Below, one piece after another: positions 8,739-45,073 of a DNA stretch of 64,000 nucleotides. The DNA lies in NCBI GenBank assembly GCA_002067705.1, contig MVRL01000173.1, forward strand, positions 1 through 64,000. The letters are read 5' to 3'. The stretch's first letter is position 1. Every line of letters begins with the position of its first letter. This stretch comes from Methanosaeta sp. PtaU1.Bin112 (GTDB taxonomy: Archaea; Halobacteriota; Methanosarcinia; Methanotrichales; Methanotrichaceae). The notes below the pieces were generated by a model, which worked only from the letters and a program-made list of their open reading frames with translations, was not told the DNA's origin and ran no database searches. A program made the position numbers and the translations under genes.

Positions 8739-8787
8739 AATTATCACCTGCTCTATTATGTTGGCCTCTAAAATATATCAGGCTTTC

Positions 8788-9747: not shown

Positions 9748-9800
9748 CCTTGTCTTCTATCTGCTAGTCTTCAATTTGCTCATCTTCAGAGCTGAAAGCT

Positions 9801-10655: not shown

Positions 10656-10766
10656 GGACAAATGTTATAGTCTCTGACCGCATAAACTTTGCGTGGAGAC
10701 GGCCAAGCATAAGACCCGTTGCCTATCCAGTTCCACTGATCATCGTTACACTGATCCGCTTGCGGA

Positions 10767-11540
10767 TCATGCTGCGTTATCTCTTTTGGCCAAGAACGAC
10801 CTCTGCACGCCTTCGGCCATCTTGCGAGCGATCTCTGTCGGAATTCCCATGACCAGGCAGTCTTCGGGAAGCCAAATTCTGGCAGACGGATCGGTAGGGC
10901 CGAGAAATATCCGGGAAGAAGAAGCATTTTCTGCCATGCCCGCCGGATAGGTGACCAGGGTGGCGCACGCCGGGCCCCAGGGAAATGATATCAAATCAAA
11001 GACATCATGGCTGCTAAAATGGGCCAATGTGCACAGATCCCTGATCTGCTCACCACTGGCAAAACATATTATGCACTTTACAGACGAATCATCATTCAAA
11101 TCATCACAGCGGCTGATCAACACGTACTTTCCCAGGCGTTTGATCGCTCCTACCGCTCGGTAGGTCTCGCAGGCTATTTCCTCGTTTTCTTTCAGATGTT
11201 TGCCATCCTGTTTTGCAGCATTGGGTTCTGTGGGCATCAGGCCTGTCGACATCAATCCCGGCAGCCTCGGATCGAATTCCCGATATCCAAACCATGCCGG
11301 CCCACCCATACAGCGGCAGAAGACCTGGTCGGGATCATCTCCGGCATAAACCGGACCCCCGATCCGGCCTTCTGCAATCTGCAATATGCTGCAGGCCAGG
11401 CAGTCGCTGATGAGAGAGGACCGGATGGCATTTTCTGGTATTCGATCCGAGCCATACACGCAAACCGGACGGAACCTCATATTCACGGCCCCGGCCAAGA
11501 TGGACCCTATTTGCCTGATTGACAATCTGTGCTCTATCAT
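10767..11540 (-). CDS. DUF169-family protein
   Basis: The 257-residue protein matches the DUF169 pattern: a short N-terminal strand ending MRFRPVCVYG, a cysteine-containing CLACSILQIAEG helix, a CRCMGGPAWFGY segment near residue 77, and a C-terminal EDCLVMGIPTEIARKMAEG motif. DUF169 proteins are common in methanogens and acetogens and have no assigned reaction. The gene starts inside a direct repeat whose other copy lies at the end of the zinc permease gene at 27.5 kb, so it was once placed directly downstream of that permease. Confidence 0.75.
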   Translation of the reverse strand: MIEHRLSIRQIGSILAGAVNMRFRPVCVYGSDRIPENAIRSSLISDCLACSILQIAEGRIGGPVYAGDDPDQVFCRCMGGPAWFGYREFDPRLPGLMSTGLMPTEPNAAKQDGKHLKENEEIACETYRAVGAIKRLGKYVLISRCDDLNDDSSVKCIICFASGEQIRDLCTLAHFSSHDVFDLISFPWGPACATLVTYPAGMAENASSSRIFLGPTDPSARIWLPEDCLVMGIPTEIARKMAEGVQRSFLAKRDNAA

Positions 11541-11735
11541 AAACGCCTCAGAAAACCACCATCGATAGCTACAATCATTATTGAATCTTGGTATATATCA
11601 TTCTCTTGAAAGAGACAACTACAGATAATGCAAATACTCCGGTGAGAAGCAGGGCTACCAGAGGAGCGATGGGAAGGGATGAACTCAAAGTCCCCCCGGA
11701 CGCCAAAGGCGCTCACCAGGAGAGCCGCTGCCGCC
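11505..11735. repeat. Left copy of island-flanking direct repeat
   Basis: By eye about 90% identical to 27485-27737 over the core 11533-11728, same orientation. It spans the first codons of the DUF169 gene and the last ~50 codons of a zinc-type ABC permease. In this copy an extra base in GGGATGAAC (GGGTGAAC in the other copy) shifts the permease frame. Confidence 0.85.
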
Positions 11736-11745
11736 ACGCTGAAGG
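11573..11745 (-). pseudogene. Frameshifted 3' relic of a zinc/manganese ABC permease
   Basis: On the minus strand the relic reads ALLVSAFGVRGDFEF, matching ALLVSAFGVWAGFEF of the intact permease at 27564-28394. It then changes frame and resumes the nucleotide similarity down to the former stop. The 5' nine-tenths of the gene are absent: sequence upstream of about 11745 has no clear match. It abuts the intact DUF169 gene, showing what used to precede it. Confidence 0.8.
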
Positions 11746-11821
11746 CTGAGCAAGTGCAAAGACGAGTGACTCTGATGAAGAGACTGGAGAGGGGGAGGAG
11801 ATTATCACCTGAGATTATCAA

Positions 11822-12526
11822 TCATCCTTCCAAGACTACCCTTCCTTTTTCCATGAATGCAATCCGGTCGCTCATATGCCTTACAACCTCCATATCATGA
11901 GATATGAAGAGCATGGTCAGCCCGAACTCTCTCTTCAGATCCATCATGAGATGCAGAATCTGGGCCTGAACGGAAACATCCAGGGAGGCAGTGGGCTCAT
12001 CCGCGACGATGAACTCAGGATTTATAGCCAGTATTCTGGCCAGAGCAACTCTCTGGTTCTGCCCACCGCTGAGCTGGTAAGGATAACGGTTCAAATGCTC
12101 CGGATTCAAGCCTACAGTCTCAATCAGCCCCATGATATTCTCATCCATCTCACTGCGGCTCATCTTTCCCCGCAGCCCCAGCTTGAACGGCTCGGCGATG
12201 CTCTCTCTTATTCGCATCCTCGGGTCCAGAGAGGACTCAGGATCTTGAAAAATCATCTGCATCCTGGGCCTTAAGCTTCTCATCCCCTTTCGACTCAACC
12301 TGGTAATATCCGTCCCATCGAAGGATATTTTGCCGGATGTCGGCTCAATCAGCCGGAGAAGCAGGCGGCCCAAGGTGGTCTTTCCGCAGCCGCTCTCACC
12401 CAACAGCCCAAGAGTCTCGCCTCGCTCGATGCAAAACGACGCGCCATCTATGGCTTTTGTATATTGCCGGTTGATAAAGCCGGTGGAATAGTACTTCTTG
12501 AGATCCAAGACCTCGATCAGGTGCAT
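11822..12526 (-). CDS. Oligopeptide/nickel-type ABC transporter ATPase (OppF/DppF/NikE-like)
   Basis: ATG 12526 is chosen because GAGGTG lies 6 nt upstream; it overlaps the end of the preceding ATPase gene. The 234-residue product has Walker A GESGCGKTTLGR near residue 48, the ABC signature LSGGQNQRVALARILA near 145, Walker B FIVADEPTASLD and an H-loop histidine. It is shorter than typical OppF (about 310), lacking the C-terminal substrate-leader extension with its cysteine motif. It energises uptake by the permeases at 14741-16554. The last gene of the left-arm operon; the permease relic begins right after it. Confidence 0.85.
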   Translation of the reverse strand: MHLIEVLDLKKYYSTGFINRQYTKAIDGASFCIERGETLGLLGESGCGKTTLGRLLLRLIEPTSGKISFDGTDITRLSRKGMRSLRPRMQMIFQDPESSLDPRMRIRESIAEPFKLGLRGKMSRSEMDENIMGLIETVGLNPEHLNRYPYQLSGGQNQRVALARILAINPEFIVADEPTASLDVSVQAQILHLMMDLKREFGLTMLFISHDMEVVRHMSDRIAFMEKGRVVLEG

Positions 12527-13452
12527 AAGAAGCACCTCACAAAATCACCCTTATGCAACCTTATCATGGGAGGATGCTCCCTCTGGCAGATATCCATAGA
12601 CCTGGGACAGCGGGGATGGAATCTACAGCCGGAGGGAGGATCGATGAGAGAGGGGCTGGATCCTGGTATGGGCTGCAGGCCACGAGAGGGAAGGCTGTGG
12701 ACGAATCCTTGCGTGTAAGGATGACAGGGATCGCTCAGGATGAGCTCTGCTGATGCTATCTCCAGGAGCTCTCCTGCATACATAACCGCAATGCGATCGC
12801 AAGCTTCTCCCGCCGCTTTTAGGTCATGGGTTATCATGAGCATGGATCGGCCGGCAGTCATATCTCTAATGAGCTTGACGATCTCGGCCTTGGTCCGGGC
12901 ATCAAGTCCTCGGGTAGGCTCATCGGCAATGACAAAGGATGGCTGTCCGGCGAGCCCCATGGCGATCATGACTCTCTCCTTCATGCCCCCGGAAAGCTCG
13001 TGAGGATATTGATCCGCCCTCATTAAAGGATTGGGAATCATTGTCGCAGCCAGCATTTCCACCGCTTTGGCTTTCGCCGCCTTTTTATCCAGTCCCCCAT
13101 GCAGCCTTATCACTTCTGCGATCTGATCACCTACCTTTAGGACGGGATTGAGCGAAGTAGTTGGATTTTGAAGAATCATGGCAATCTCCCCACCTCGCAG
13201 AAGTCTCATCTCGTCCTCAGTCAGCCCGAGAAGATCACGTCCTTTGTAAATTATTTGACCCTGTATCCTGGTAGAAGAGGAAAGCAGACGGATGATGGAC
13301 ATGCCAAGAACCGTCTTCCCGCAACCGGTCTCGCCTATCAGACCCAATCGCTCGCCATTTTCTATGCGGAGATCCACCGCATCCACCGCTTTCACCAGGC
13401 CATCCGCGGATGGAAAATAGGTTTTGAGATTTATGATATCGAGCAAAGCCAT
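12517..13452 (-). CDS. Oligopeptide/nickel-type ABC transporter ATPase (OppD/DppD/NikD-like)
   Basis: A full-length 311-residue ATPase: Walker A GETGCGKTVLG near residue 38, signature LSGGMKERVMIAMGLAG near 150, Walker B FVIADEPTRGLD near 172. The C-terminal region has the oligopeptide-transporter extension with CRFHPRCPRSMDIC near 275-290, a cysteine cluster that in DppD/OppD-type ATPases can hold an Fe-S cluster. It pairs with the ATPase at 11822-12526 to drive import. The gene is separated by about 55 bp from the MFS gene upstream and belongs to the same minus-strand operon. Confidence 0.9.
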   Translation of the reverse strand: MALLDIINLKTYFPSADGLVKAVDAVDLRIENGERLGLIGETGCGKTVLGMSIIRLLSSSTRIQGQIIYKGRDLLGLTEDEMRLLRGGEIAMILQNPTTSLNPVLKVGDQIAEVIRLHGGLDKKAAKAKAVEMLAATMIPNPLMRADQYPHELSGGMKERVMIAMGLAGQPSFVIADEPTRGLDARTKAEIVKLIRDMTAGRSMLMITHDLKAAGEACDRIAVMYAGELLEIASAELILSDPCHPYTQGFVHSLPSRGLQPIPGSSPSLIDPPSGCRFHPRCPRSMDICQREHPPMIRLHKGDFVRCFLCT

Positions 13453-13506
13453 AGGTGGCTGAATAGCAGTTCGTAATATTAAACATTGCTACGAATTTTC
13501 ATGAAT

Positions 13507-14766
13507 TTACATTGAGGGAACTGGCTGCATCTTTTCAAACTTATTAAAGAATACAAAATACATGGAGGCGGTTAGGGCATAAAAAATGCCTGTGATTAAA
13601 AAAGGCACGCGGTTTCTCCCCATCGCCATCATCAGCCCTCCTGCATATGTTCCTATTCCAACGAAGCTATAGCAGGCCATCCACATAATGCTGTTAATCA
13701 TCGATCTCTGCTCAGCGCGGACTATTTCCAGTTTAAAACTGTTTAAGATGGGATTTGCCATGTTCATGAGCATATAGCGCACCAAATACCCAAATGCTGC
13801 AACCGGCAAACTTGAGGAGAAGATGAAGATCAGAAGAAATGGGATGGATAAGATCTGCACAGCAGATGCCATCCTGATCTTGCCGAGCTTTTCGGTGAGC
13901 ATGGGCACCAAGAAGTATCCAGCGATCATGACCAGTTGCGATAGGGAGAATATCAAGCCGATCTGGCTTGCACTCGCACCAAGCACAACATCAAAATATA
14001 CATTAAAATAGGGAAGAGACATCCCCCACCCAATTCCGAAAAGGCAGTAAAATAAGACCATCCTGCACACGTTCTTCAACCGGAATATGGATTTATAGAC
14101 TTGGATCCTTCTTGCCATGCTTGTATCTTTCCGAGAGGGACTCTCTGTGATGTACGCAAGAGGCAAGAGCGAGATGACGGTCGCCGCCAGTGATACATAA
14201 AGGGTCAATCGATATGCAATCGAGCCGCCAGCTCCAAGAATAGACGGCAAAAAACCTCCGATCATATTCCCGGACAGAGTTGAAAAAGTGTAGATGATAT
14301 AGTATGCGGAAAAAAGATGCATTCGTTCATATGCGGTTGAATTCTCTACGAGAAAAGTTGCTCCCGTAACGAGGCTTAAGGCAGATGCCATGCCATAGGC
14401 AATGCTGAATACGACCAATAGCTCCTCTGAGGTTGTATTGTAAAGAAAGAGAAGCGAAAGGCAGAGAAGCGAGGACGAGATTAATAATGTATCTTTCCGG
14501 CCAACGTGATCACATACAATGGCGGCAGGTATAGCGAACAGCCCGATGGAAACGGATGAGAGAGACAATATCAGCCCTAAAAAGTCCTCTGTAAATCCAA
14601 GACTTAAAATATATAAATTAAAAATGACACCATAGATTCCCACGTTTAAGGTCGTCAGAAAAATGAACATCAAATACCGTTGCGCATTGGGGCTGAAGCT
14701 CTTTATTCTGGCAATAAAACCGTTAGACGCTGAAAGCATATCAAAGCGGATTGACGGCGGTTTCAT
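13507..14766 (-). CDS. MFS transporter inside the ABC operon
   Basis: The 419-residue protein has twelve predicted helices and the MFS loop DHVGRKDT near residue 84. The start ATG 14766 lies within the end of the preceding permease gene (26-bp overlap), so translation is coupled and the transporter is an integral part of the operon. Base composition is more AT-rich than in the neighbouring ABC genes, hinting at a different origin. An MFS gene embedded in an Opp/Nik-type operon recalls metallophore systems, where an MFS protein exports the ligand and the ABC system retrieves it. The substrate here is unknown. Confidence 0.82.
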   Translation of the reverse strand: MKPPSIRFDMLSASNGFIARIKSFSPNAQRYLMFIFLTTLNVGIYGVIFNLYILSLGFTEDFLGLILSLSSVSIGLFAIPAAIVCDHVGRKDTLLISSSLLCLSLLFLYNTTSEELLVVFSIAYGMASALSLVTGATFLVENSTAYERMHLFSAYYIIYTFSTLSGNMIGGFLPSILGAGGSIAYRLTLYVSLAATVISLLPLAYITESPSRKDTSMARRIQVYKSIFRLKNVCRMVLFYCLFGIGWGMSLPYFNVYFDVVLGASASQIGLIFSLSQLVMIAGYFLVPMLTEKLGKIRMASAVQILSIPFLLIFIFSSSLPVAAFGYLVRYMLMNMANPILNSFKLEIVRAEQRSMINSIMWMACYSFVGIGTYAGGLMMAMGRNRVPFLITGIFYALTASMYFVFFNKFEKMQPVPSM

Positions 14767-15574
14767 CTTGATTCAGCTCTTCCAATCCAAATCCGATCAG
14801 AACGAATCCTAAAACAGCCAAGGAGATGCAGATTCCCGGCGGCAGGTACCACCACCAGTAGCCGTTGATGAATCCGCCGCGAGAGAATGCATAGCTCAGC
14901 ATCATGCCCCAGCTCTTCTGCATGGAATCGCCAAGACCCAGAAAACTCAGAGAAGCCTCAGTCAGCATCGCCCCGGCAACGGCCAGAATGAACTTGGCCA
15001 TGATTACCTGCAAGGTATTGGGCAAGATGTGTTTGAAGACTATGTAGCAGTCTCCTGCGCCCAAACCCCTGGCTGCCTCTACGAAAGGCATCTCACGCAG
15101 CTGCAGCACCCGAGAGCGGACGACTCGCGCCGTGGATGTCCACCAGAGAGCCCCGATTACGATGACGATATTCCAGATGCTGGGACTTGTGTGAGCAGCG
15201 AGGATGATCATAAGCGGCAGGGCCGGTATGATGAGAACAATGTCGGTTGCACCCATGAGGACCTCATCAGCTGCGCCGCGCAGGTATCCGGAAAAGAGGC
15301 CTATAAGGGTGCCGATAGCCACAGAGACGAAAGAGGCAAAGAATCCCACAAAAAGAGAGATACGCGCACCGAAGACCAGCTCGCTGAAGATATCCTGGCC
15401 GATGTCGTTGGTGCCGAAGGGATGCGTCCCGCTCGGAGGAAGGAAAGGCCTTCCCGGCTCCCAGGGGTCATAGGGAGCGATCAAAGGGGCAAGGGCTGCG
15501 AGTATCATGAAAAGAGAAAGCAAAAGAAGGCCAAAAAGAACAGGCCAGCTCAGATTTCGCGCAAATTCGTTCAT
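14741..15574 (-). CDS. Oligopeptide/nickel-type ABC permease (OppC/DppC-like), left arm
   Basis: The correct start is ATG 15574 (MNEFARNLSWPV), preceded by GGAGGTG and overlapping the upstream stop; the frame is open further but that region is inside the upstream gene. The 277-residue protein has six membrane segments, an extracytoplasmic N-terminal loop with GTNDIGQD, and the permease EAA motif VEAARGLGAGDCYIVFKHILPN near residue 178 that contacts the ATPase. Highly similar to the right-arm permease at 26547-27374, so the pair arose by duplication. Confidence 0.9.
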   Translation of the reverse strand: MNEFARNLSWPVLFGLLLLSLFMILAALAPLIAPYDPWEPGRPFLPPSGTHPFGTNDIGQDIFSELVFGARISLFVGFFASFVSVAIGTLIGLFSGYLRGAADEVLMGATDIVLIIPALPLMIILAAHTSPSIWNIVIVIGALWWTSTARVVRSRVLQLREMPFVEAARGLGAGDCYIVFKHILPNTLQVIMAKFILAVAGAMLTEASLSFLGLGDSMQKSWGMMLSYAFSRGGFINGYWWWYLPPGICISLAVLGFVLIGFGLEELNQDETAVNPL

Positions 15575-16554
15575 GCCTGCACACCTCCTCTTATCCTCGG
15601 ATCGAGCACCGCATAAAGCAGATCCGCCAGGAAGTTGGCCGCCAGCACACAAGCAGCGATTACAAGGAAGCTTCCGTGCAGCAGCGGATAGTCCCGGGCA
15701 AAAACCGCGTCGTAGATGAGCGTCCCCATGCCGCCCCAGGAGAAGACGATCTCCACCAGCAATGCTCCGGAGACCATGAAGCCGAAGTCGAGGGCGATCA
15801 CAGTAACCAGCGGAAGCATGGCATTTCTGAGAACGTGTTTGAACAAGACATCCCTCTCTCGCAATCCTTTTGCCCGCGCGGTGAGGACAAAGCCCTCTCC
15901 TGATATCTGCACCACAGAGCTTCTCATGATGAAAAAATTATAGGCAGCGCCAAATAGAGTCAGCACAGAAACTGGCAGGGCCATATGCCAGAGAACATCT
16001 CGCAGCTTTGCCAGGCCCGCCAGGCCGCCACCTGTTATGCCGCTCAAGGGAAAGAGCTCCAGGCAGAAGGCAAAGATGAGCACAGAGAGCATGGCCAGCC
16101 AGTAGTGGGGCAGGGAGTAGATGAAGAGAAACAGCGATGTAATGCCCGTGTCCCTCCCGGAGCCCCGCCACCAGCCCGCTGCAGCGCCCATAACGATGCC
16201 AAAGATCGCGCCAAGGATCACAGATGGAATCAGCAGGACAAACGTCCACTTCATCTTGTAGGCGATCACCTCCCAGACGGGCTGGGAGTAGTGAAAGGAA
16301 TAGCCAAGGTTGCCCTTTGCCAGGTTATTCAGATAGGATAAGTACTGCTCTGCAATAGGTCGATCAAGGCCGTATTGGGCTTTTAGCCCTTCTACCAGCT
16401 CGGGCGATCGGTAGTAAACCTCCTCGCCAAGCAGGCTGATGAACGGATCTCCGGGCATCATCCTGGGGATGAGAAAGACGAGAGTCACGATTATAAAGAG
16501 GGAGATGGCATATCGAAGCGATTGGCATGCCAGGTAGCCTGTGCGGTCGGTCAT
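15571..16554 (-). CDS. Oligopeptide/nickel-type ABC permease (OppB/DppB-like), left arm
   Basis: A 327-residue membrane protein with the N-terminal MMPGDPF segment typical of OppB-like permeases, followed by QYGLDRPIAEQYL. The EAA loop (TARAKGLRERDVLFKHVLRNAM, about residues 222-243, quoted in part) is near the C-terminal third, and the last helices read VSGALLVEIVFSWGGMG and ARDYPLLHGSF. It forms the membrane channel with the OppC-like permease. The right-arm protein at 25565-26545 is a close paralogue, with the same GMGTLIYDAV segment. Confidence 0.9.
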   Translation of the reverse strand: MTDRTGYLACQSLRYAISLFIIVTLVFLIPRMMPGDPFISLLGEEVYYRSPELVEGLKAQYGLDRPIAEQYLSYLNNLAKGNLGYSFHYSQPVWEVIAYKMKWTFVLLIPSVILGAIFGIVMGAAAGWWRGSGRDTGITSLFLFIYSLPHYWLAMLSVLIFAFCLELFPLSGITGGGLAGLAKLRDVLWHMALPVSVLTLFGAAYNFFIMRSSVVQISGEGFVLTARAKGLRERDVLFKHVLRNAMLPLVTVIALDFGFMVSGALLVEIVFSWGGMGTLIYDAVFARDYPLLHGSFLVIAACVLAANFLADLLYAVLDPRIRGGVQA

Positions 16555-16570
16555 ATTAACGTTAGTCTCT

Positions 16571-17380
16571 TTAATCCTTGTGATACAAGATCATTGCATC
16601 CTTGTGCTTCCTCTTGACGAAATCCTTTCCATCTTCGTCCTCCAGCCGTCCGGTAGATGAAAGATGATCCAGCAGCACCTCCATTGCCTTAAAAGTGAGG
16701 TCATATGTCTCTTTTAGGATATCCAGCTGCATCTGCAGGGGGAGAAGATACCGGCGTGTGAAGATCTCGATATTGGCAGGGTAGCCCATCTGATAGAGGC
16801 AATTGTAGAGATAGATATAATCGGGATCGGATCTCTGCTCACCAAATACTTTCTGATAGACATCGTAAAAGCCGTGGTCCGCCAGGGAAACCAGGAATAG
16901 TGCCTTTCCGGTCACATCCAGCATCTTCTGTAGGTCTTCTTTTATGTCAGTCATCTGGAAGCAATAGGCGGCGTTCACAATAGTGTAAGTCTCCAGCTCA
17001 GATCTATCGATGTCCTGCCAGCGTTTGTTTATGACATCGATATTCTTCAGGCCCTCCTGATCTGCCCTTCGCATGAGCCTGGCAATCTGGCCGCCGGAAG
17101 GCTCAACTGCAGTTACTTTGCTAGCCACCTTGGCCAGGGGGATTGTGTAGGCCCCTGGCCCGGCTCCAATATCCAGAACTGTAGAGCTGGGGTCCAGATG
17201 GAGAAGCATCCTCCCCAGGATTGTTCCAGGATATCCTGCTATCCTGTTGTACTCTTCGTATCTATCGCCGAATTCATAGCAGTCCCAGTACTGCTCATTG
17301 GAGATGGCCTTCTCTTTCAGCCACCTGTTCCAGGAAGACTCCTCTCTGTGCTTCTTCCATTCCTCCGACCAGTCGATCAT
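16571..17380 (-). CDS. Class I SAM-dependent methyltransferase
   Basis: The 269-residue protein has the Rossmann-type SAM-binding motif I (VLDIGAGPGAYTIPLA, near residue 70) and the following acidic strand VTAVEPS. N- and C-terminal parts are not recognisable. It shares the opening MIDWxxxWK and the overall plan with the methyltransferase at 19176-19997, so the two are paralogues. Lying between a binding-protein gene and the permeases (gap to the permease 16 bp), it must be part of the uptake operon. It could act on the transported compound, or make it; aminocarboxypropyl transfer instead of methyl transfer cannot be excluded. Confidence 0.82.
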   Translation of the reverse strand: MIDWSEEWKKHREESSWNRWLKEKAISNEQYWDCYEFGDRYEEYNRIAGYPGTILGRMLLHLDPSSTVLDIGAGPGAYTIPLAKVASKVTAVEPSGGQIARLMRRADQEGLKNIDVINKRWQDIDRSELETYTIVNAAYCFQMTDIKEDLQKMLDVTGKALFLVSLADHGFYDVYQKVFGEQRSDPDYIYLYNCLYQMGYPANIEIFTRRYLLPLQMQLDILKETYDLTFKAMEVLLDHLSSTGRLEDEDGKDFVKRKHKDAMILYHKD

Positions 17381-17411
17381 ATGAGATCACCAAAAAAATT
17401 TGACAATCCCC

Positions 17412-19043
17412 TCAGTTCTGCACCGGCTTGATGCTAAACCAAGACCAGTAGTTCACGGGACCGTAGCCGTTCATGGGCGTCCAGCCCTCCCAGCGATCAG
17501 TGCACACTGGGTAGATGGCATCTCCCCAGATGAGAGCGATGATGGGCTGCTCGCTGGCCACATATTCCTGAATAGCCCGTCGATTCCGGTCGAGTTCTTC
17601 AGCATCTTTGGATCGTATCGCTTCATTTACAGCCTCGACAATCGTTGGGTCTCTGCAAGTGCCAAACATCCCTGGCAGATCCACATAATATTCTGCAGCC
17701 GTGTCTCCTGCCAGATTGGCGTACGGCGTAGAGTATCTGATAGCCATGAAATAGTCTCTATCCGTCCAGAGCTTTTTCTTCAAAGCATCGCTGCTCATGG
17801 ATTCGACATAGGCATCCAGACCGACTTTGCGGAGATTCTGAGATATGACCTCTGCAGCCCTCACATATTGAGGCTTGGTATCCGGTGTGATCGGTATTTT
17901 TAGCTTGTTTCCGTCCGGACTCTCACGCAAGCCGTCGCCGTCCTTATCAAGGAATCCCGATTGGTTCAGAAGATCTCCAGCCTTCGTGGCGTTGTACTCC
18001 AGCTTTGGCAAATCGGAATCAAAGCCAGGCAACGCCGGAGAGTTGTAGCCTCTGCCCGGAATTTCCCCATAGCCCGCGGCGATCATTTCCTTCAGGGCCT
18101 GATAGTCGATGCAATAGGATACCGATTGCCTGAATGCAGTCGTATTTGTCGGATACTGCTTGAATCCAAATACAAGATGAAGAGGAATACCAATATCTGG
18201 CACAATGATGAGATCTATGTTATCAGCTTTCATAAGATCGGCGGCATAGATCCCTGACACGGGCTGATAATAGTCCGCCTTAGCATCGATCTCGCCGGTC
18301 TCCAGTGCCAGCAGAAGAGTATCCAATGATCTGTAATATTGCCATTGGATTTCATCTACAGAAGGCCTGCCAGCGAAGTAATTGGGATTGGCTTTCAGGT
18401 AGGCGATCTGAGCATCATTGTCGAATTTCTCGAAGATGAACGGACCGCATCCGATCAGTGCATCATCCCCATTGTACTCCTTGGGCTTTTCTACATCCAT
18501 CCAAATGTGCTTGGGGATCACAAAGGTAATGGGAATCTGAGATGCCAGGGTCACAGCCGCCACAGATTCATTGAAAACCAGCTCTACGGTATTATTATCA
18601 ATCACCTTGGCGTGGTCTAGGTAGCTTCCATACCAATTTCCCCTGGCATCCGATTTATCGATCTTCTTCCAGTACTCAAATGAGAATGCAACATCTTCCG
18701 CGGTCACCGGCTTTCCATCATGCCAGGTTGCATTTTTTATAAGATGGAATTCGATCGACTTTCCATCGGGAGATATCAGCCATTTTTCCGCAAGACATGG
18801 AGCTATGCCCAGGTCCGGCCCGAATGTGGCCAGAGGAATATGGGTCATGCCGAATACGGCACCATTTCCCCAGGGAAGAACGAAGGCATTCATCTGTGTA
18901 AATTTGTCACTCTGCAATCCAAGATGCAGGACATTTCCTTTTTCTGCTACACATGAGGCTGTCGCAGCCAGCAATACGATCAAGACTGCCAAGCCGCAAA
19001 CAAAAAGCCCCTCTGATGTAGATCTACTCCACAATCGCATCAT
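17412..19043 (-). CDS. Family-5 extracellular solute-binding protein (left arm, second copy)
   Basis: The 543-residue precursor starts with a signal peptide (MMRLWSRSTSEGLFVCGLAV region, cleavage near SCVAEKG). The mature protein has the SBP_bac_5 landmarks CLAEKWLISPDGKSIEFHL, NATWHDGKPVTAEDVAFS and GCGPFIFEKF, and a C-terminal YWSWFSIKP. Family-5 proteins bind peptides, nickel, nickel-chelates or metallophores outside the membrane and hand them to an Opp-type permease. It follows a methyltransferase gene and precedes another, forming a repeated SBP-methyltransferase unit. Closest relative in the window is 20047-21759. Confidence 0.9.
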   Translation of the reverse strand: MMRLWSRSTSEGLFVCGLAVLIVLLAATASCVAEKGNVLHLGLQSDKFTQMNAFVLPWGNGAVFGMTHIPLATFGPDLGIAPCLAEKWLISPDGKSIEFHLIKNATWHDGKPVTAEDVAFSFEYWKKIDKSDARGNWYGSYLDHAKVIDNNTVELVFNESVAAVTLASQIPITFVIPKHIWMDVEKPKEYNGDDALIGCGPFIFEKFDNDAQIAYLKANPNYFAGRPSVDEIQWQYYRSLDTLLLALETGEIDAKADYYQPVSGIYAADLMKADNIDLIIVPDIGIPLHLVFGFKQYPTNTTAFRQSVSYCIDYQALKEMIAAGYGEIPGRGYNSPALPGFDSDLPKLEYNATKAGDLLNQSGFLDKDGDGLRESPDGNKLKIPITPDTKPQYVRAAEVISQNLRKVGLDAYVESMSSDALKKKLWTDRDYFMAIRYSTPYANLAGDTAAEYYVDLPGMFGTCRDPTIVEAVNEAIRSKDAEELDRNRRAIQEYVASEQPIIALIWGDAIYPVCTDRWEGWTPMNGYGPVNYWSWFSIKPVQN

Positions 19044-19144
19044 CCTCCTTCTCTAAATCCTCGTTCTAATGAAGCATACAATGATTTTGATGCGAATAAA
19101 GCTCAAGGTAATAATAGTTTATGGCATTATCGCAATAAGTAATA

Positions 19145-19153
19145 TGATACTAA
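19145..19153 (-). promoter_or_regulatory. TTAGTATCA motif upstream of binding-protein gene
   Basis: Minus-strand TTAGTATCA, about 100 bp before the start at 19043. The longer GTATCATATTA (19140-19150) recurs exactly at 29641-29651 just ahead of the FmdE gene, and TTAGTATCA recurs at 21858-21866. Candidate shared operator; no protein partner known. Confidence 0.3.
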
Positions 19154-19175
19154 AAAAATAGCTATATATTTACCG

Positions 19176-19997: not shown

Positions 19998-20046
19998 AAT
20001 GAGGGTCTCCTTGATTAATTATAAAAATTATGGGCGAAAAGTTATG

Positions 20047-21759
20047 CTACGCGCCCACCGGCTTAATGCTAAACCATGATTTATGGCTGGTCAGCCCATA
20101 CCCTTCCAGCGGGATCCAGCCCTCAAACCTGTCGCTCCTGTATGGATAAATGGATTTGCTCCAGTAGAGAGCAATGCCGGGCAGCTCTTTTGCGTAATAG
20201 TCCTGAAGCTGATACACAGCCGCCTTCATCTCCTCTGGTGTCCTGGCGGACATGGTGACATTGTACAGCTCTGAGAACTCTGGATCGGTGCAGGTCCCAT
20301 ACTGCAGCGGCACTAAATCGATAGTGGCAAAGCCGAGCGCAGTCATATACGGATCATGGAAGTCGATATGCATATCGTAGCTGCGATCATCCCAAACCAT
20401 CTTCTGCAGCACTGACAGCTCATTGGTATAAGGCTGAAACTCAATACCTGCCTTCTTCAGCATGTGGCTGAGCATCTCTGCCACTCTCATGTCCTTCTGG
20501 TCATTCCAGGCGATGACCTGGAACCGGAGCTCTGTGCCGTTAGGCAGATTCCTTATGCCGTCTCCATTCGTATCTTTGAAGTTCAGGGAATCCAGGAGGT
20601 CATTGGCTTTGGTCAGGTTGTACTCCAGTTTGGGCAGATCGGGATTGGACTCAACTATGCTTGAGGGAAGGATTCCCGCACCCGGCACCTCGCCATAGCC
20701 TGCCTCAATGGCATCGACCAGAGACTGATAGTCAATGGCATAGGATACGGCCTTCCTGAAATCGGTAACATTGAGCGGATATTTCTTGTAGTTGAAGATA
20801 AGCAGCGGCAATCCCGGATTTGGTCCGATCTCAATTGTCAGTCCCTTTTCTCCAAGCAACGACGGGGCTAAAACACCTTCGGGTGACTCATCAATCAGAA
20901 CATCTATATCTCCCTTTTTAAGGGCCAGGAGAGCAGAGTCCACGGTTCGGAAGTGCTTCCACTCGATTCGATCGATGGCAGGTTTGCCTTTGAAGTAATC
21001 GGGATTGGCTTTGAAGTATGCAGTATCTGCATCTCTATCGATCTTCTCAAAGATGAAAGGCCCGCAGCCGATCATGCCATCGGGCTCGCCGTACTCTCTG
21101 GGCTTTTCCACCTTCTCCCAGACGTGCTTGGGCACGATATAGACCGATGGAAATAGCGACTTTATGAAATAATAGGCATAAGGCTCCTTGAGGTGGATCA
21201 CACCTGTGTAGTCATCCAGCACCTCCACGCTATCCAGATAGGCATCCAGCCAGCCGCCCTGGCGATAGAGATGGTTGTCGCGCCAGTACTCGTAGGTGAA
21301 CTTCACATCCTGCGCAGTAACAGGCTTTCCATCGTTCCAGGTGGCATTCTTCACCAGATAGAACTTGATTGAGCTTCCATCAGAGGAGACTTCCCATTTT
21401 TCGGCGAGACATGGCCTTGGAGAAAAGTCGGAATCGAAGAACGCCAGACCGACATGGGTTGCGCCATATAGCTCATTGAGCTGGTTATATGAAGGGCGCC
21501 TGAGCGCATTAAATACCGGCGGGAATTCCAGGTTGTACAACCCAGCCCGAAGAGTGATCTGGTCATTGGCAGATCCGCTGTCTATAGAGGCGCTTTTTGC
21601 AGCCTGATCTGCAGCAAGGGCCTGCAAGGGAATTGCCAGGGAGACGATCAGAGTCGCCGCGATGCAAAGAAATGCGCATCTGAGGAGTTTCTTCTTATTA
21701 GTTCTACTGCAATTGCTGCTGAGCAGCCTTTTCTTTCTTGGCATTAACATATTCATCAT
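20047..21759 (-). CDS. Family-5 extracellular solute-binding protein (left arm, first copy)
   Basis: A 570-residue precursor, with a basic N-terminus (MLMPRKKRLL) and a hydrophobic signal segment around residues 28-48 ending near LQALAAD. The mature protein shows PCLAEKWEVSSDGSSIKFYL, NATWNDGKPVTAQDVKF and GCGPFIFEKIDRDADTAYFK, all standard family-5 motifs, and the C-terminus HKSWFSIKP. First gene of the left-arm operon, divergent from the SBP gene at 21987. The 227-bp shared promoter region holds several TAGTAAT-like motifs. Confidence 0.9.
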   Translation of the reverse strand: MMNMLMPRKKRLLSSNCSRTNKKKLLRCAFLCIAATLIVSLAIPLQALAADQAAKSASIDSGSANDQITLRAGLYNLEFPPVFNALRRPSYNQLNELYGATHVGLAFFDSDFSPRPCLAEKWEVSSDGSSIKFYLVKNATWNDGKPVTAQDVKFTYEYWRDNHLYRQGGWLDAYLDSVEVLDDYTGVIHLKEPYAYYFIKSLFPSVYIVPKHVWEKVEKPREYGEPDGMIGCGPFIFEKIDRDADTAYFKANPDYFKGKPAIDRIEWKHFRTVDSALLALKKGDIDVLIDESPEGVLAPSLLGEKGLTIEIGPNPGLPLLIFNYKKYPLNVTDFRKAVSYAIDYQSLVDAIEAGYGEVPGAGILPSSIVESNPDLPKLEYNLTKANDLLDSLNFKDTNGDGIRNLPNGTELRFQVIAWNDQKDMRVAEMLSHMLKKAGIEFQPYTNELSVLQKMVWDDRSYDMHIDFHDPYMTALGFATIDLVPLQYGTCTDPEFSELYNVTMSARTPEEMKAAVYQLQDYYAKELPGIALYWSKSIYPYRSDRFEGWIPLEGYGLTSHKSWFSIKPVGA

Positions 21760-21842
21760 CCTGCGAGGCTATTTAATCTCTTTACATGGTGAGCATATTA
21801 TCAAAAGAGCCTGATACGGAAGACTCAATTGCCTCATCATAC

Positions 21843-21939
21843 TAGTAATTAATTCAGTGATACTAAGTCATAAATATTTTGGCAAAATTCCAGAGAAAAC
21901 GCACTAAAATTTAGATATAAACTATGTAATTAGTAATAC
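21843..21939. promoter_or_regulatory. Divergent promoter region with TAGTAAT/TTAGTATCA motifs
   Basis: Between the divergent SBP genes lie TAGTAATT (21843-21850), TTAGTATCA on the minus strand (21858-21866) and TAGTAATAC (21931-21939). A TATA-like TTAGATATAAAC lies at about 21911-21922. The motif resembles the palindrome TAGTATTACTA ahead of the ZnuA-like gene at 45074. Confidence 0.4.
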
Positions 21940-21986
21940 ATTTATATTCTAACGGTAGTGTAATATAAGATTGCTTGGAGGATATT

Positions 21987-23576
21987 ATGAGAACTAAAAT
22001 GCAGCTATTTCTAGCAGCATCAATCGTGTTTTGCATTCTGCTTTCCGGATTGGCCTTTGCCCAAGACCGGACCACTGCAAAATCCGGAGAAGTGAGCAAG
22101 CTTGTCATCGGCACCACGGACCATGTGGAGGATATCAACGTCAACGATGGAATCTTCAACACCTATCGTGAGGCCTTCCTGACCAAATCTCTGATAAGGG
22201 TTGACCAATCCGGCAACTTTGTCCCGGCCCTGGCGGAGAGCTGGGAGACAGAGGACGCTAAGAAATGGACCTTCCACCTGGTAAAGAACGCCACCTGGCA
22301 TGATGGTACGCCTGTGACTGCTGGGGATCTCAAGTTCTCCCTGGAGTATCTGCCCGAGAAGCTGGGCGGATCCAACTGGAAGATCATCGACTCCGTGCAG
22401 GCTCCGGATGAAAGCACTCTGATTATCAATCTCAAGTCTCAGGATGGAAATTTCCTGACCAATCTGCTCATGCTGCGCTCAGTTCCAAAGCATGTGTTCG
22501 AGAAGGTAAACGATCCCAAGAAGTTCAATGAGCCCGCCAGCGCCGTCGGCTGCGGCCCCTATAAATTCATGGACTTTGAGAAAGCTGCCGGTCTTCTTCG
22601 CTTCCAGGCCTATGATGGCTATTATGAAGGCAAGCCAGCCGTGCAGGAGATAGACATTCGCATGTTCAAAAATCAGGAAGCCATGATGATGGCCCTTCTC
22701 AATGGGGAGCTGGATACTATCTACATCTACTCAGGAGGCATCAGCTACTACTATGTCCCTCAATTGATTGAAAACGACAACCTGGGCTACATGCTCATCA
22801 AGAACAGCGGAGTGCCTGCCGCCCTGTGGCTGAATGAGAACAAGACGCCATTTGACGATGTGCGATTCCGGGAAGCGATAAGCTATGCCATCGATTACCA
22901 GGAGCTGCAAAACCTGTTCACCGCCGGCTATGGCCGAACTCCTTCCGCAGGCTTTATCCCGGACGGCACTCTCAACTACATTGAGACGAGGGACCTCTCC
23001 TTCAATTCCAGCCGAGCCACTGCCCTGCTCAATGAAACGGGATTGGTAGACAAAGATGGAGACGGGCTGCGAGAGAATGCCGATGGAATGAAGTTGCAGC
23101 CACAGATCCTGGTCAAGTCGGATAGCGACAGCGTCCGGCTGGGTGAGATGCTCAAGAAATACATGAGCGCAGTGGGGCTGGATGCACAGCTCAAGGTCAG
23201 CGACAGCAGCGGTTTTTGGGATGTGGTGGACGCAAAAGAGCATGATATGTTCATCAGCCGCACAACCCCCTGGGGAATGATGATGGAGGCCGGTTATGCG
23301 ACGGGCTACATGGACACCAGGAGCAACGGCTGGCCCATGGTAAATGATCCTGCTTTCACAGAGCTGGTGGATGATCTTCTCGCCGCCTCAAATGCTGAGA
23401 AGACAGCTCAGCTTGCCGGATCTGTGCAGGAATATTACGCCAGGGAGCTGCCGGCCATTGCTCTTTACTGGAATGATTATGTGCAGCCCTATAACAAGAA
23501 GTATGAAGGATATGTTGCAAATCCTATTCACGGCATACTCTCATATGAGACATTCTACGGGCTGCACCAGGCATAA
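21987..23576 (+). CDS. Family-5 extracellular solute-binding protein (right arm, first copy)
   Basis: The start ATG 21987 has GGAGG 8 nt upstream; the TTG at 21975 is less likely. The 529-residue precursor has a signal peptide (MRTKMQLFLAASIVFCILLS region, cleavage after LAFAQ). Motifs include PALAESWETEDAKKWTFHL, NATWHDGTPVTAGDLKFS and GCGPYKFMDF. The segment IYSGGISYYYVPQLIENDN is nearly repeated in the next gene, so these two are the closest pair of the four. It likely delivers ligand to the right-arm permeases. Confidence 0.9.
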   Translation: MRTKMQLFLAASIVFCILLSGLAFAQDRTTAKSGEVSKLVIGTTDHVEDINVNDGIFNTYREAFLTKSLIRVDQSGNFVPALAESWETEDAKKWTFHLVKNATWHDGTPVTAGDLKFSLEYLPEKLGGSNWKIIDSVQAPDESTLIINLKSQDGNFLTNLLMLRSVPKHVFEKVNDPKKFNEPASAVGCGPYKFMDFEKAAGLLRFQAYDGYYEGKPAVQEIDIRMFKNQEAMMMALLNGELDTIYIYSGGISYYYVPQLIENDNLGYMLIKNSGVPAALWLNENKTPFDDVRFREAISYAIDYQELQNLFTAGYGRTPSAGFIPDGTLNYIETRDLSFNSSRATALLNETGLVDKDGDGLRENADGMKLQPQILVKSDSDSVRLGEMLKKYMSAVGLDAQLKVSDSSGFWDVVDAKEHDMFISRTTPWGMMMEAGYATGYMDTRSNGWPMVNDPAFTELVDDLLAASNAEKTAQLAGSVQEYYARELPAIALYWNDYVQPYNKKYEGYVANPIHGILSYETFYGLHQA

Positions 23577-23924
23577 GAAAAGGTAATTCCGGCGGGGGCT
23601 GGATATTAAGCGCCCAGCACCGCCAACCCGTTATTTTTTCAACTGGCCTTGGCTTCTAAAGCAGCGGGCGGGAAAAATGTCGGTGGCGCTGTTTATGGGA
23701 CAGTGCCTGTCATCGGCGTGCTGGGGGCGCAAAATTCGGATAAAACCTCAGAACCATTATTCAGCGCCCTCTCGCCAATTGATGCAATGATGTGCCATAA
23801 AAAGTCGATTACAAAAGAATGTCATAAGCAATATTTAATTACTATTTAACATTCGTTAAGATTAAATAGCAATGATTTGCTTATTCGTAAAACGAATTTG
23901 GAGTATCAAGGAGGATCAACGACA
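23577..23924. other. Spacer between right-arm binding-protein genes
   Basis: No gene seen. A hairpin pairs GGCGG..GCTGG (23591-23602) with CCAGC..CCGCC (23614-23624), followed by a T6 tract at 23632-23637: a likely partial terminator after the first SBP gene. On the minus strand TAGTAAT (23838-23844) lies 81 bp before the next gene, and a promoter-like TATTTAATTACTATTT stretch surrounds it. Confidence 0.55.
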
Positions 23925-25520
23925 ATGAACCGGGAATTTCTGCTGTTATCTACAGCGCTAGTGCTGCTCAACCTGATTGGCACCGGATGGGCGGCAGAGA
24001 ACGGAGGGAGCGACGGAGACCGCATCCCTATGCTAAAAGTTGGTACCATCAATCAGATCAATGAGGCAAATCCCTGGGACTACTATTTTGGCGTATACAG
24101 CATGATATTCAGCCATCAGGGTCTGGTCAGATTCAATAACGAAGGAGATATCGTGCCTGAGCTGGCCACATCCTGGGAGACGGACGACCTTCAGAAGTGG
24201 ACCTTCCACCTGCGAGAAGATGCCAATTGGCACGACGGCCAGCCGGTGACCGCTAATGACATCAAGTTTTCCATCGATTACAACCTGGAGAAGGACCCTC
24301 TCTCCAAGTCCTACATCGGGTCTATCGATTCCGTAGAGGCTCCGGACAAGAAAACGGCGATCATCAACCTGAAGAAGCCGGACTACAATTTCCTCAACAC
24401 CATTGCGGTGGTGAAGATGATTCCAGAGCACATCTTCCAATCGGTGGATGAGCCCAAGAAATATAATGATAAGAATGCCGCTATAGGCTGCGGACCGTAC
24501 AAGTTCGTCAGCTTCGACCGAGATGCTGGAATTGTCACCTACCAGGCGAATGAGAATTATTGGGGCGCTATCCCGGCCATCGATGCCATCGAGCTGAGGA
24601 TGTTCAAGAATCCGGATGCTCTGATGCTTGCCTTCCAGAAGGGAGAGATAGACCTGCCCTATTACTACTCCAAAGGCATCAGCTACTACTATGTGCCGAA
24701 ACTGCTGGAGAATGATGATATAGGAATCGAGGTCTACCCGGAGAGGGGAATCACCAATGTGCTCTGGTTCAACACTGCAATAGCTCCCTTCGACAACAAA
24801 GAGCTGCGACAGGCATTCAGCTATGCAGTGAATTACGAAGAGCTGAAGAACATGTTCACCGCAGGCTATGGCACCGTTCCCAGCGCCGGATGGGTTCCTA
24901 ACGGCACGCTCTATTACATCGAAACCAGATCCCTGACTCAGGATATCAACAAATCCCGGGCCCTGCTTGACAGCCTGGACTTCAAGGACATCGACGGCGA
25001 CGGCCTGCGAGAGATGCCGGATAAAGCCAAGTTCCAGCCAAAGCTCCTGACCAGAAGCGACTTGCCGGACAGCGTTCGGGCGGCAGAGATGCTGAAAAAG
25101 TACTTTGCCGAGGTCGGCATAGACATGCAGATCGATCTGGCTGACAAGAGCACCCACGGGCAGATCATGGACGAGAAGAAGACTCATGAGGTATCGTTGG
25201 CAGGAACAACTTTCTGGGGCATGACTATGGGCGAAGGCTACGGCTCCGGATACACCGATACCAGGAATTACGGCTGGTCCATGGTCAGCGACCCGAAATA
25301 TCAATCTATGGTCGATGATCTCGGCATGACTCAGGACAAGGATAAGCGAAAGGATCTGGCGGCTGAGATCCAGAACTACTATGCAGAGGAGATGCCCCAA
25401 TTTACAATATACTCCATGAACATCATCCAGCCCTATAACGCTCTCTATGCCGGCTGGGAGTATAACCCACTGCATGGAATCCTGTCCTATGGCACTCTTT
25501 CTAACCTGCACAAGGCCTGA
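23925..25520 (+). CDS. Family-5 extracellular solute-binding protein (right arm, second copy)
   Basis: ATG 23925 is chosen: GGAGG lies 11 nt upstream and a signal peptide begins at once (MNREFLLLSTALVLLNLIG, cleavage near GWAAE). The 531-residue precursor has PELATSWETDDLQKWTFHL, DANWHDGQPVTANDIKFS and GCGPYKFVSFDRDAG. It shares YYYSKGISYYYVPKLLEND with its neighbour. The permease genes follow after 44 bp. Like its paralogues it should capture an extracellular peptide, metal complex or metallophore; the ligand cannot be read from sequence. Confidence 0.9.
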   Translation: MNREFLLLSTALVLLNLIGTGWAAENGGSDGDRIPMLKVGTINQINEANPWDYYFGVYSMIFSHQGLVRFNNEGDIVPELATSWETDDLQKWTFHLREDANWHDGQPVTANDIKFSIDYNLEKDPLSKSYIGSIDSVEAPDKKTAIINLKKPDYNFLNTIAVVKMIPEHIFQSVDEPKKYNDKNAAIGCGPYKFVSFDRDAGIVTYQANENYWGAIPAIDAIELRMFKNPDALMLAFQKGEIDLPYYYSKGISYYYVPKLLENDDIGIEVYPERGITNVLWFNTAIAPFDNKELRQAFSYAVNYEELKNMFTAGYGTVPSAGWVPNGTLYYIETRSLTQDINKSRALLDSLDFKDIDGDGLREMPDKAKFQPKLLTRSDLPDSVRAAEMLKKYFAEVGIDMQIDLADKSTHGQIMDEKKTHEVSLAGTTFWGMTMGEGYGSGYTDTRNYGWSMVSDPKYQSMVDDLGMTQDKDKRKDLAAEIQNYYAEEMPQFTIYSMNIIQPYNALYAGWEYNPLHGILSYGTLSNLHKA

Positions 25521-25564
25521 GGAGATTGCCTTTGCAAACTTTTTTTTAAAACGGGGATTTGATT

Positions 25565-26545
25565 ATGTTAAGCAGCAGAAGGGCCTATTTCCTGAGCAAG
25601 CTGGTTCGATACTCATTTACATTCCTTTTGATCTTATCCCTGAATTTTGCCCTGCCCAGGATGATGCCCGGAGACCCAATAGTCAACCTGCTGGGCGAGG
25701 AGGCTCTCCATAACGATCCCAGGATGATTGAGCGTCTTCGCGCCGAACACGGCCTGGACAGGCCCCTGCATATCCAATACATCGGCTATCTGCGCTCCCT
25801 GGCCAGGATGGACCTCGGCTACTCCATTCATAAAAACCTGAGCGTGGCTGAGCTGATGGAAAACAGTCTCCTCTGGACACTGCTGCTGGTCTTTCCTTCG
25901 GTCGTCATCGGCTCAATTCTAGCTTTGCTCTTCGGTTCCCTGGCGGGATTCAAGAACAATAGCCGGACGGATTTCCTTCTCACTGCTCTGGCTCTGCTAT
26001 TCTACACGTGTCCCCCTTTTCTCCTGGCAATGCTCATTTTGAGCATCTTCGCATTTCACCTGGGGCTCTTTCCACTGGGGAACCTGACGTCAGGGGGAAG
26101 ACTGGGCCTTGATTATGTTCTGGACGTGGCATGGCACCTTTTCTTGCCTGTTGCCGCTTTATCGTTGCTGGGAGCGAGCTACAAATTCCTGGTAGTAAGA
26201 AATTCTGTGACGCAAATCTTTGATGAGCAGTTTATAGTTGCAGCCAGAGCAAAGGGCCTGACCGAGCGATGCATCCTCCTGCGCCACGTTATCCGGAACG
26301 TTCTGCCGCCGTTCATCAGCATGGTGGCATTGAGTTTCGGCTTCATGGTCTCCGGCGCACTTGTTGTGGAGATCGTCTTCTCTCTAAACGGCATGGGTAC
26401 TCTCATCTACGATGCCGTTGTAGCCAGGGATTATCCGATCATGCAGGGCTCTTTCCTGGTGCTGACGATATTCGTGCTGGCCGCCAACTTCGCGGCGGAT
26501 ATGCTTTACGGGGTAGCCGACCCCAGAATTGGAGGACCGCACTGA
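25565..26545 (+). CDS. Oligopeptide/nickel-type ABC permease (OppB/DppB-like), right arm
   Basis: The start ATG 25565 is preferred to TTG 25559, with GGGGA upstream. The 326-residue protein contains RMMPGDPIVNLLGEEAL, EHGLDRPLHIQYIGYL and the EAA loop AARAKGLTERCILLRHVIRN, then VSGALVVEIVFSLNGMGTLI. It is a close paralogue of 15571-16554. No ATPase genes accompany the right arm, so it presumably shares the ATPases at 11822-13452 on the other side of the divergent promoter. Confidence 0.9.
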   Translation: MLSSRRAYFLSKLVRYSFTFLLILSLNFALPRMMPGDPIVNLLGEEALHNDPRMIERLRAEHGLDRPLHIQYIGYLRSLARMDLGYSIHKNLSVAELMENSLLWTLLLVFPSVVIGSILALLFGSLAGFKNNSRTDFLLTALALLFYTCPPFLLAMLILSIFAFHLGLFPLGNLTSGGRLGLDYVLDVAWHLFLPVAALSLLGASYKFLVVRNSVTQIFDEQFIVAARAKGLTERCILLRHVIRNVLPPFISMVALSFGFMVSGALVVEIVFSLNGMGTLIYDAVVARDYPIMQGSFLVLTIFVLAANFAADMLYGVADPRIGGPH

Positions 26546-26546
26546 A

Positions 26547-27374
26547 ATGGAGATGGCAAGAGATTTTCTCGCCCACTCGCGTCTTCAATTGATTGGGCTA
26601 TTCATTCTCATCCTCTTCCTTGCTGTGGCCATCTTTGCGCCATTGATCGCACCACATGATCCCGAGGAGTCGAAAACGCCTTACCAGCCCCCCAACCAGG
26701 AGCACCGCCTGGGAACAAATGATATCGGCCAGGATATTCTCTCCGAGCTGATCTATGCCTCTCGCGTTTCCCTGACCATCGGATTTCTGGCCGGACTGAT
26801 ATCGGTACTCATAGGAGCGACCCTGGGGATGCTGGCCGGATATTACCGGGGAATAGTAGAGGAGATGGTCATGGCCACAGGAGATGTGGTTTTGCTCATT
26901 CCCGGACTGCCCCTGATGATCATCCTGGCGGCTTATCTTTCTCCCAGCATGTGGAACATCGTTCTTGTGGTCGGTCTGCTCTGGTGGTGCTCCACAGCGC
27001 GGGTGGTTCACTCTCGCGTGCTGCAACTGCGGGAGATGCCCTTCGTGGAAGCGGCCCGGGCGCTGGGCGGCGGGGATCTCTACATAATATTCCATCATAT
27101 CCTGATCAATAGCAAGGAGGTCATCTACGCCAAGTTCGCCCTGGCGGTGGCTTCTGCCATGCTCACCGAGGCATCCTTGAGCTTTCTGGGACTGGGAGAT
27201 CCTTTGAACATAAGCTGGGGGGAGATGATTCACTTTGCCTTTTCCCGGGGCGGATTTGCCAATGACATGTGGTGGTGGTATCTTCCTCCGGGGCTGATGA
27301 TCTGCGCCTGCGTTCTGGGATTTGTGCTGATCGCAATGGATCCGGAGAGATCCCAAAAGGCGCAGGAGCTGTAG
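26547..27374 (+). CDS. Oligopeptide/nickel-type ABC permease (OppC/DppC-like), right arm
   Basis: ATG 26547 has GGAGGA 10 nt upstream and follows the previous stop by one base; an in-frame TTG at 26529 is less likely. The 275-residue protein has APHDPEES, the NDIGQDILSELIYASRVS segment, the EAA loop VEAARALGGGDLYIIFHHIL and the C-terminal GGFANDMWWWYLPPGLMI, all shared with the left-arm paralogue at 14741-15574. It is the last gene of the right arm; the flanking repeat begins about 110 bp downstream. Confidence 0.9.
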   Translation: MEMARDFLAHSRLQLIGLFILILFLAVAIFAPLIAPHDPEESKTPYQPPNQEHRLGTNDIGQDILSELIYASRVSLTIGFLAGLISVLIGATLGMLAGYYRGIVEEMVMATGDVVLLIPGLPLMIILAAYLSPSMWNIVLVVGLLWWCSTARVVHSRVLQLREMPFVEAARALGGGDLYIIFHHILINSKEVIYAKFALAVASAMLTEASLSFLGLGDPLNISWGEMIHFAFSRGGFANDMWWWYLPPGLMICACVLGFVLIAMDPERSQKAQEL

Positions 27375-27420
27375 ATGAACAATTAAAGGAATAAATGGCT
27401 TGGAGCCGATGGCAGGGTTC

Positions 27421-27528
27421 AAGCCCTAAAGAGATTTTTTGTCTCAGAAGACCGAGCCTGTTGGATCCTCACCAGATACGATCTCAAAGCCTGCTAGACA
27501 GTCTGTGCTTCTATCAGCTCTATCATAA
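27421..27528 (-). pseudogene. 5' relic of a DUF169-type gene
   Basis: Minus-strand ATG at 27528 begins MIELIEAQTV then stops. The surrounding DNA aligns with the first codons of the intact DUF169 gene: the words GACA(A/G)TCTGTGC and CTCTATCAT are shared, with about 10 extra bases here. Only the very 5' end is detectable; further downstream the similarity fades. Confidence 0.5.
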
Positions 27529-27737
27529 TCGCCTCAGAAAGCCACCATCATTAGCTACAATCATCAGTGAATCTTGGTATTTATCCTTCTCTTGAAAGAG
27601 ATAACTACAGATAATGCAAATACTCCGGTGAGAAGCAGGGCCACCAGAGGAGCGACGGGAAGGGTGAACTCAAAACCTGCCCAGACGCCAAAGGCGCTCA
27701 CCAGGAGAGCTGCGAGCGGCGCCGCCACGAACATGCT
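27485..27737. repeat. Right copy of island-flanking direct repeat
   Basis: Matches 11505-11735 in the same orientation. Here the permease reading frame is intact and the DUF169 part is broken, the reverse of the left copy. Both copies together define an interval of about 15.8 kb. Confidence 0.85.
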
Positions 27738-29125: not shown

Positions 29126-29135
29126 GACAACCCGC

Positions 29136-31731: not shown

Positions 31732-31739
31732 ACTCGAAT

Positions 31740-35478: not shown

Positions 35479-35494
35479 GAATTCACAGAGAATG

Positions 35495-45064: not shown

Positions 45065-45073
45065 GCGGTAATT

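Follow-up and report, generated by a model that had tools for sequence, protein, structure and literature searches.

Tandem duplication with reciprocal loss and a later inversion as the probable history of a metal-uptake and Opp transporter locus in Methanosaeta

Background

Changes of gene order by tandem duplication and random loss (TDRL) have been modelled for animal mitochondria (PMC3283314, PMC5745709). For bacteria, the model of Selection during Niche Adaptation (SNAP) regards the dosage of nutrient transporters as a possible object of selection, and an inversion that follows the duplication would lock it (PMC7055797). The first two SNAP steps were seen in natural isolates, with further analyses needed as a test (PMC7055797). 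SNAP has also been applied to operon clusters, and the uptake of DNA from the same species is another process able to generate duplications (PMC8046335).

The locus described here, in a 64,000-nucleotide stretch of Methanosaeta sp. PtaU1.Bin112 (hereafter the window, meaning the whole stretch analysed), probably arose by tandem duplication with reciprocal loss and a subsequent inversion. It resembles TDRL in its tandem duplicate, the single kept copy of each gene, the remnants of lost copies and a gene order altered without change of strand, but it lies on an archaeal chromosome, covers ~20 kb and carries an extra inversion, whereas TDRL has been described mostly for mitochondrial genomes. With SNAP it shares asymmetric loss after a duplication in which nutrient-transporter genes were included, together with an inversion of the duplication-locking kind; it differs in that the host is an archaeon, and although the outcome fits, selection on dosage would be an interpretation here and the duplicated genes are not known as essential.

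Two other kinds of system invite comparison. A ZnuABC-type metal uptake operon with FmdE and DUF169 is represented by genes of the ZnuA, ZnuB and ZnuC families with Pfam support, but is split over three places in the genome. Integrative islands with direct repeats are similar in that a repeat-bracketed segment interrupts a gene pair; in this locus, however, there is no recombinase, the gene content is ancestral, and the repeats are gene fragments of ~200 bp that are 9% diverged.

Results

Two diverged copies of a permease-DUF169 junction

Three features define the repeat and the gene that it enters (copy a and copy b denote the two proposed duplicates):

11531-11729, minus strand: left repeat, comprising the tail of the ZnuB' pseudogene, the intergenic gap and the start of DUF169 (self-alignment; all nine polarised changes lie here)
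27517-27714, minus strand: right repeat, comprising the 3' end of intact ZnuB, the intergenic gap and the remnant of the DUF169 start, copy a (self-alignment)
10767-11540, minus strand: surviving DUF169 gene, copy b (PF02596, 1.2e-26; sister to the DUF169 of G036)

Local alignment of the window with itself paired 11531-11729 with 27517-27714 across one 1-nt gap, and the same pair was recovered by a repeat finder and as a blastn self-match (11531-11725 with 27517-27710; 91.3% over 195 bp, E 6e-71), the longest identical run being 39 nt. By eye the match extends ~20 nt more into DUF169 once a tandem insertion of 10 nt in the right copy is passed, and ~15 nt more into ZnuB across a 6-nt gap, so that the two diverged copies that the first-pass annotation had placed near 11505-11735 and 27485-27737 were confirmed close to those limits. 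In both copies, which lie on the minus strand, a tail of ~50 codons of an ABC-3 (ZnuB-type) permease is followed, after a gap of 46 nt, by the start of DUF169. As that annotation had also read, DUF169 is intact on the left (257 aa, PF02596) beside a permease (ZnuB') of which only this tail is present, with a 1-base insertion and without its 5' part; on the right the permease is intact (ZnuB; 276 aa, PF00950) and DUF169 is reduced to about 30 nt, with the 10-nt insertion. Since the non-coding gap of ~46 nt is itself 91% identical between the copies, the repeat exists at the level of DNA and is more than a conserved protein motif.

In a tree with seven relatives the repeat copies are sisters (support 95; 0.97 in FastTree), and they have a common spacer that was not found in G036, G035, G016, G022 or G003. 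The permease tail common to both contains twelve differences, nine of them polarisable; all nine arose in the left copy, the dead ZnuB', and none in the right, and seven of the nine are nonsynonymous. When ZnuB' originated, the two copies were essentially identical, which favours a duplication within the genome.

The ancestral operon in related genomes

At least nine further genomes of the family have DUF169 or a remnant of it after the permease, so the ancestral pair suspected at first pass is found in many relatives, and a ZnuA-family protein comes next after DUF169. The ancestral operon was therefore reconstructed as FmdE-ZnuC-ZnuB-DUF169-ZnuA, an order present in G036, G035, G016, G025, G022, G003, G021, G018 and G037. 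Its front is preserved in the window:

27564-29639, minus strand: ZnuB (ABC-3), ZnuC-type ATPase and FmdE-family gene (PF00950, PF00005, PF02663)

The ZnuA, ZnuB and ZnuC families are all present and intact (PF01297, PF00950, PF00005), zinc transport being a prediction. DUF169 looks dispensable in the family, because it is frameshifted or fragmented in G016 and G025 and absent from the operon in G024 (loci L092 7912-8666, L093 3193-3786, L101 11630-13288). A search of the literature on DUF169 gave nothing useful, and a DUF169 scan of named genome contigs turned up relatives (Methanotrichaceae, Methanoregula, Asgard archaea), with no second genome of this architecture at the level of that scan.

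Two FepB-type binding proteins, whose N-terminal stretch is dockerin-like by eye, adjoin the operon at 30184-33011. Homologues occur near the operon in G025 and not directly beside it in G036, which suggests that this side of the operon has had an insertion or deletion of its own. Further along, a direct repeat of ~110 bp (33547-33656 and 35487-35595, 83%) lies on either side of an OMP-decarboxylase-family gene.

Ancestry of the segment between the repeats

Pfam assigned all genes of the segment between the repeats, which comprise two DppB/DppC pairs and two Opp-type ATPases, four family-5 binding proteins, two methyltransferases and an MFS transporter:

11730-11822, unstranded: junction of ZnuB' with the end of Opp ATPase 2, taken as the joint of the tandem duplication (ZnuB similarity fades at ~11742; ATPase similarity ends at the ATPase stop)
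11822-16554, minus strand: left arm of the Opp cluster, with two ATPases, the MFS transporter, DppC and DppB (Pfam; order as in relatives)
16571-21759, minus strand: two methyltransferases alternating with two family-5 solute-binding proteins (Pfam)
21975-27374, plus strand: right arm of the Opp cluster, with two solute-binding proteins, DppB and DppC (Pfam; 81-89% aa identity to G034, in the same order)

Opp genes lie downstream of ZnuA in G034, G035, G036 and G003, the last belonging to another genus, and a DppC remnant does so in G016 and G025. In G035 the DppC of this cluster, 94% identical over its C-terminal half, converges on ZnuA, as it does in G034; in G036 and G003 the Opp genes follow ZnuA on the same strand. 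The Opp ATPase genes are sister to those of G036 (support 97), which is the topology of the species tree, and in trees of the ATPases, ZnuBC, ZnuA, DUF169 and core genes alike the window groups with G036 (support 97-100). Values of dS to G034 and G035 for the right arm, the ATPases and the MFS transporter (0.55-0.98) equal those of core genes (0.59-1.04); the left-arm DppB/DppC, SBP1, SBP2 and the methyltransferases, having no close counterpart in the loci compared, stood outside this comparison and have close homologues elsewhere in the same genome and in the genus. Pairs similar to the SAM methyltransferases and family-5 binding proteins at 16571-21759 occur at G000:C35 and C31, and one might guess at a role in handling a methylated ligand.

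The first-pass annotation had left two origins side by side, integration of a circle and tandem duplication followed by loss; the second accounts for the repeats, whereas integration of a foreign circle is not supported, in view of the ancestral position of the cluster, its species-tree ATPases and its core-like dS. In the comparison of base composition that had been suggested at first pass, the GC of the segment (0.504) fell inside the spread of equal-sized stretches of the window (0.500-0.542). Pfam scans of all genes detected no integrase, transposase or plasmid gene in the island, in line with what had been noticed by eye for the first two, and transposition by an insertion element was ruled out for want of a transposase. 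An alternative is that a mobile or integrative island of distant origin entered between ZnuB and DUF169 and duplicated its target. This would explain why direct repeats flank the segment and split a conserved gene pair, but it would leave the DUF169/ZnuA fusion at the right end (described below) unexplained and is at odds with the lack of a recombinase as well as with the ancestral position, tree topology, dS and GC, on account of which a foreign island was rejected; we consider it extremely improbable. On these sequence comparisons, the Opp cluster is a long-standing neighbour of the operon, not a newcomer or a foreign island.

ZnuA at 45 kb and a probable 34-kb inversion

The last gene of the ancestral operon, and two breakpoints that would explain its distance from the other genes, were located outside the segment and had been missed in the first-pass annotation:

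7575-10661, minus strand: left flank outside the inversion, with a DOMON/DUF2202 protein, a radical SAM protein and a metallo-beta-lactamase-fold protein, MBL (Pfam; adjoins gene 43735 in relatives)
10665-10784, unstranded: left inversion breakpoint, between MBL and the 3' end of DUF169 (similarity to the MBL/43735 junction of G035 stops at 10665)
44916-44977, unstranded: right inversion breakpoint, between gene 43735 and ZnuA (similarity to the MBL/43735 junction of G035 ends at 44916; similarity to the sequence upstream of ZnuA in G036 starts at 44977)
45029-45952, plus strand: ZnuA-type binding protein, last gene of the ancestral operon (PF01297, 6.5e-17; follows DUF169 directly in relatives)

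This ZnuA is the sole one of its kind in the genome, with one match in its own genome, and directly follows gene 43735-44922. Six relatives keep gene 43735 next to or near the left flank, in the same relative strand orientation. In G035 some 9 bp separate its end from the MBL gene; the homologue of the 7575 gene is its direct neighbour in G034, G030 and G027; and in G022 and G024 it lies near the left flank with extra or missing genes in between. In the window the gene and the left flank are on opposite strands, 34 kb apart, and the window therefore appears to carry an inversion of ~34 kb (about 10.7-44.95 kb). At the left breakpoint other relatives match as far as 10695, and DUF169 similarity begins at 10776-10784. 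Undoing one inversion restores both ancestral junctions, MBL/43735 and DUF169/ZnuA, and gives the order FmdE-ZnuC-ZnuB-[Opp cluster]-ZnuB'-DUF169-ZnuA. The inversion breakpoints share no repeat, and for inverted repeats the highest local score, 19, stayed below the 95% level of 20 obtained with shuffled sequence. An early idea that the island had merely moved relative to DUF169 was dropped after ZnuA had turned up at 45 kb.

The genome is a draft of 200 contigs, and its closest relative, G036, is rearranged and fragmented at the left breakpoint, where it is uninformative with its MBL gene on another contig. These circumstances would suit a misjoining of contigs from co-occurring strains. The junctions, however, do not fall at near-identical repeats (91% at most), the inversion breakpoints are without mutual similarity, and misjoining would not yield a left copy that is a decayed pseudogene fused to the end of an ATPase, all of which makes an assembly artefact very unlikely.

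Probable traces of duplication and loss

Remnants that point to a second copy were found at the right repeat and downstream of ZnuA, the latter being likewise new relative to the first-pass annotation:

27375-27490, unstranded: ancestral ZnuA/DppC spacer, copy a, with a hairpin arm at 27397-27412, fused to ~30 nt of DUF169 (aligns with the ZnuA/DppC spacers of G035 and G034)
46025-46066, plus strand: second ZnuA/DppC spacer hairpin, copy b, after the surviving ZnuA (spacer alignment and 16-mer count)
46311-46588, plus strand: conserved 278-bp element with a small ORF of 56 codons at 46385-46555 (81% DNA identity; single copy in its own genome)

From ZnuB, the right repeat continues past the start of DUF169 into a stretch for which G035 and G034 give an alignment with the end of ZnuA and the ZnuA/DppC spacer; this would mean that copy a once had DUF169 and ZnuA before DppC and that one deletion removed them. 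The 16-mer of the hairpin arm occurs at exactly two places in the window (27397-27412 and 46048) against 0.09 expected; the spacer repeat within the window is short (34 nt at 76%). The 278-bp element lies inside the Opp cluster in G034 and G035 and just after ZnuA in G036. As the hairpin and then this element follow the surviving ZnuA, copy b, too, would once have continued towards Opp-cluster sequence; when more Opp remnants were sought downstream of ZnuA with a permissive tblastn search, the only matches were at chance level.

About ten Methanothrix genomes conserve the DNA of the small ORF (MLIGRIDGNSKKSIRSEIRYFDNDQ...), and in several of these it lies near Opp-type transporter genes. A dispersed repeat of ~100-450 bp is present at 46640-47160 and at 35337-35423, with many copies in the genome (contigs C81, C102, C106, C146, C150, C101) and also in the genus. 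The only Rfam match was a tRNA outside the locus.

One functional copy of each gene remains, DUF169 and ZnuA in copy b and the Opp genes in copy a; ZnuB is present in the genome as one intact copy and the remnant, and ZnuA and the small-ORF element are single. The second ZnuB fragment occurs in no other genome among 50 of the family, and no genome in the intermediate state of full duplication was found.

In G036, the closest relative, the Opp transport genes are likewise missing from the interval between ZnuA and the small ORF, and the lack of them in copy b could therefore predate the duplication: either the genes were lost twice, or the locus before the event was already without them. In the latter case another strain of the same species would have supplied the Opp cluster of copy a. 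A circle or concatemer with ZnuB'-DUF169-ZnuA-Opp may be imagined to have entered an Opp-poor, G036-like locus by a single crossover, followed by deletion of the redundant DUF169-ZnuA and by the inversion; the product would be identical to that of tandem duplication. With G036 already Opp-free at this place fewer later deletions are needed, and natural transformation with own-species DNA has been reported as a frequent source of duplications (discussed in PMC8046335). A diverged donor, however, would give mostly synonymous differences in both copies, whereas those observed lie in the dead copy and are largely nonsynonymous, which would require near-identity of donor and recipient. The kinship of the ATPase genes with those of G036 and the lack of integrase or plasmid genes in the island also argue against same-species integration, which appears rather unlikely.

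Discussion

The proposed history, that of tandem duplication with reciprocal loss and later inversion, would comprise four steps. (i) In the ancestor, well supported by the relatives, the operon FmdE-ZnuC-ZnuB-DUF169-ZnuA would have been followed downstream by the Opp cluster, part of which converged on ZnuA. (ii) We infer a tandem duplication from ~150-170 bp inside the ZnuB 3' end to the end of the Opp ATPase genes, which would have created the joint between ATPase 2 and ZnuB'. (iii) In copy a one deletion would have taken most of DUF169 and nearly all of ZnuA, the Opp cluster being kept, and copy b would have kept DUF169 and ZnuA and lost its Opp genes, leaving the spacer hairpin and the small ORF; the remnants are observed directly, as is the decay of ZnuB' that would have followed its origin as a pseudogene, and the order and number of losses are as we infer them. 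(iv) The ~34-kb inversion would have parted DUF169 from ZnuA through one break next to MBL and another immediately upstream of ZnuA, both ancestral junctions being present in relatives.

The features of tandem duplication with reciprocal loss, the outcome common to TDRL and SNAP, were found together: directly oriented remnants of a second copy, sister copies, one functional copy per gene and a contiguous ancestral order in relatives. The mechanism is of a known kind, unusually legible, in an archaeon. That the locus records a complete natural SNAP event, with a transporter duplication selected for dosage, reciprocal loss and an inversion lock, is a tentative reading and unlikely as it stands. 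How gene order changes in prokaryotes is debated, and here remnants of duplicates, reciprocal losses and a later inversion are legible in one nutrient-transporter locus for which related genomes provide the ancestral states. The locus is also a warning that an apparent island bracketed by direct repeats can be vertically inherited DNA.

The products of what are now three transcription units probably still assemble into one metal-uptake system. If the SNAP reading were true, this single metal-uptake system would be the outcome of the event, with its DUF169 gene now downstream of a peptide-transporter operon.
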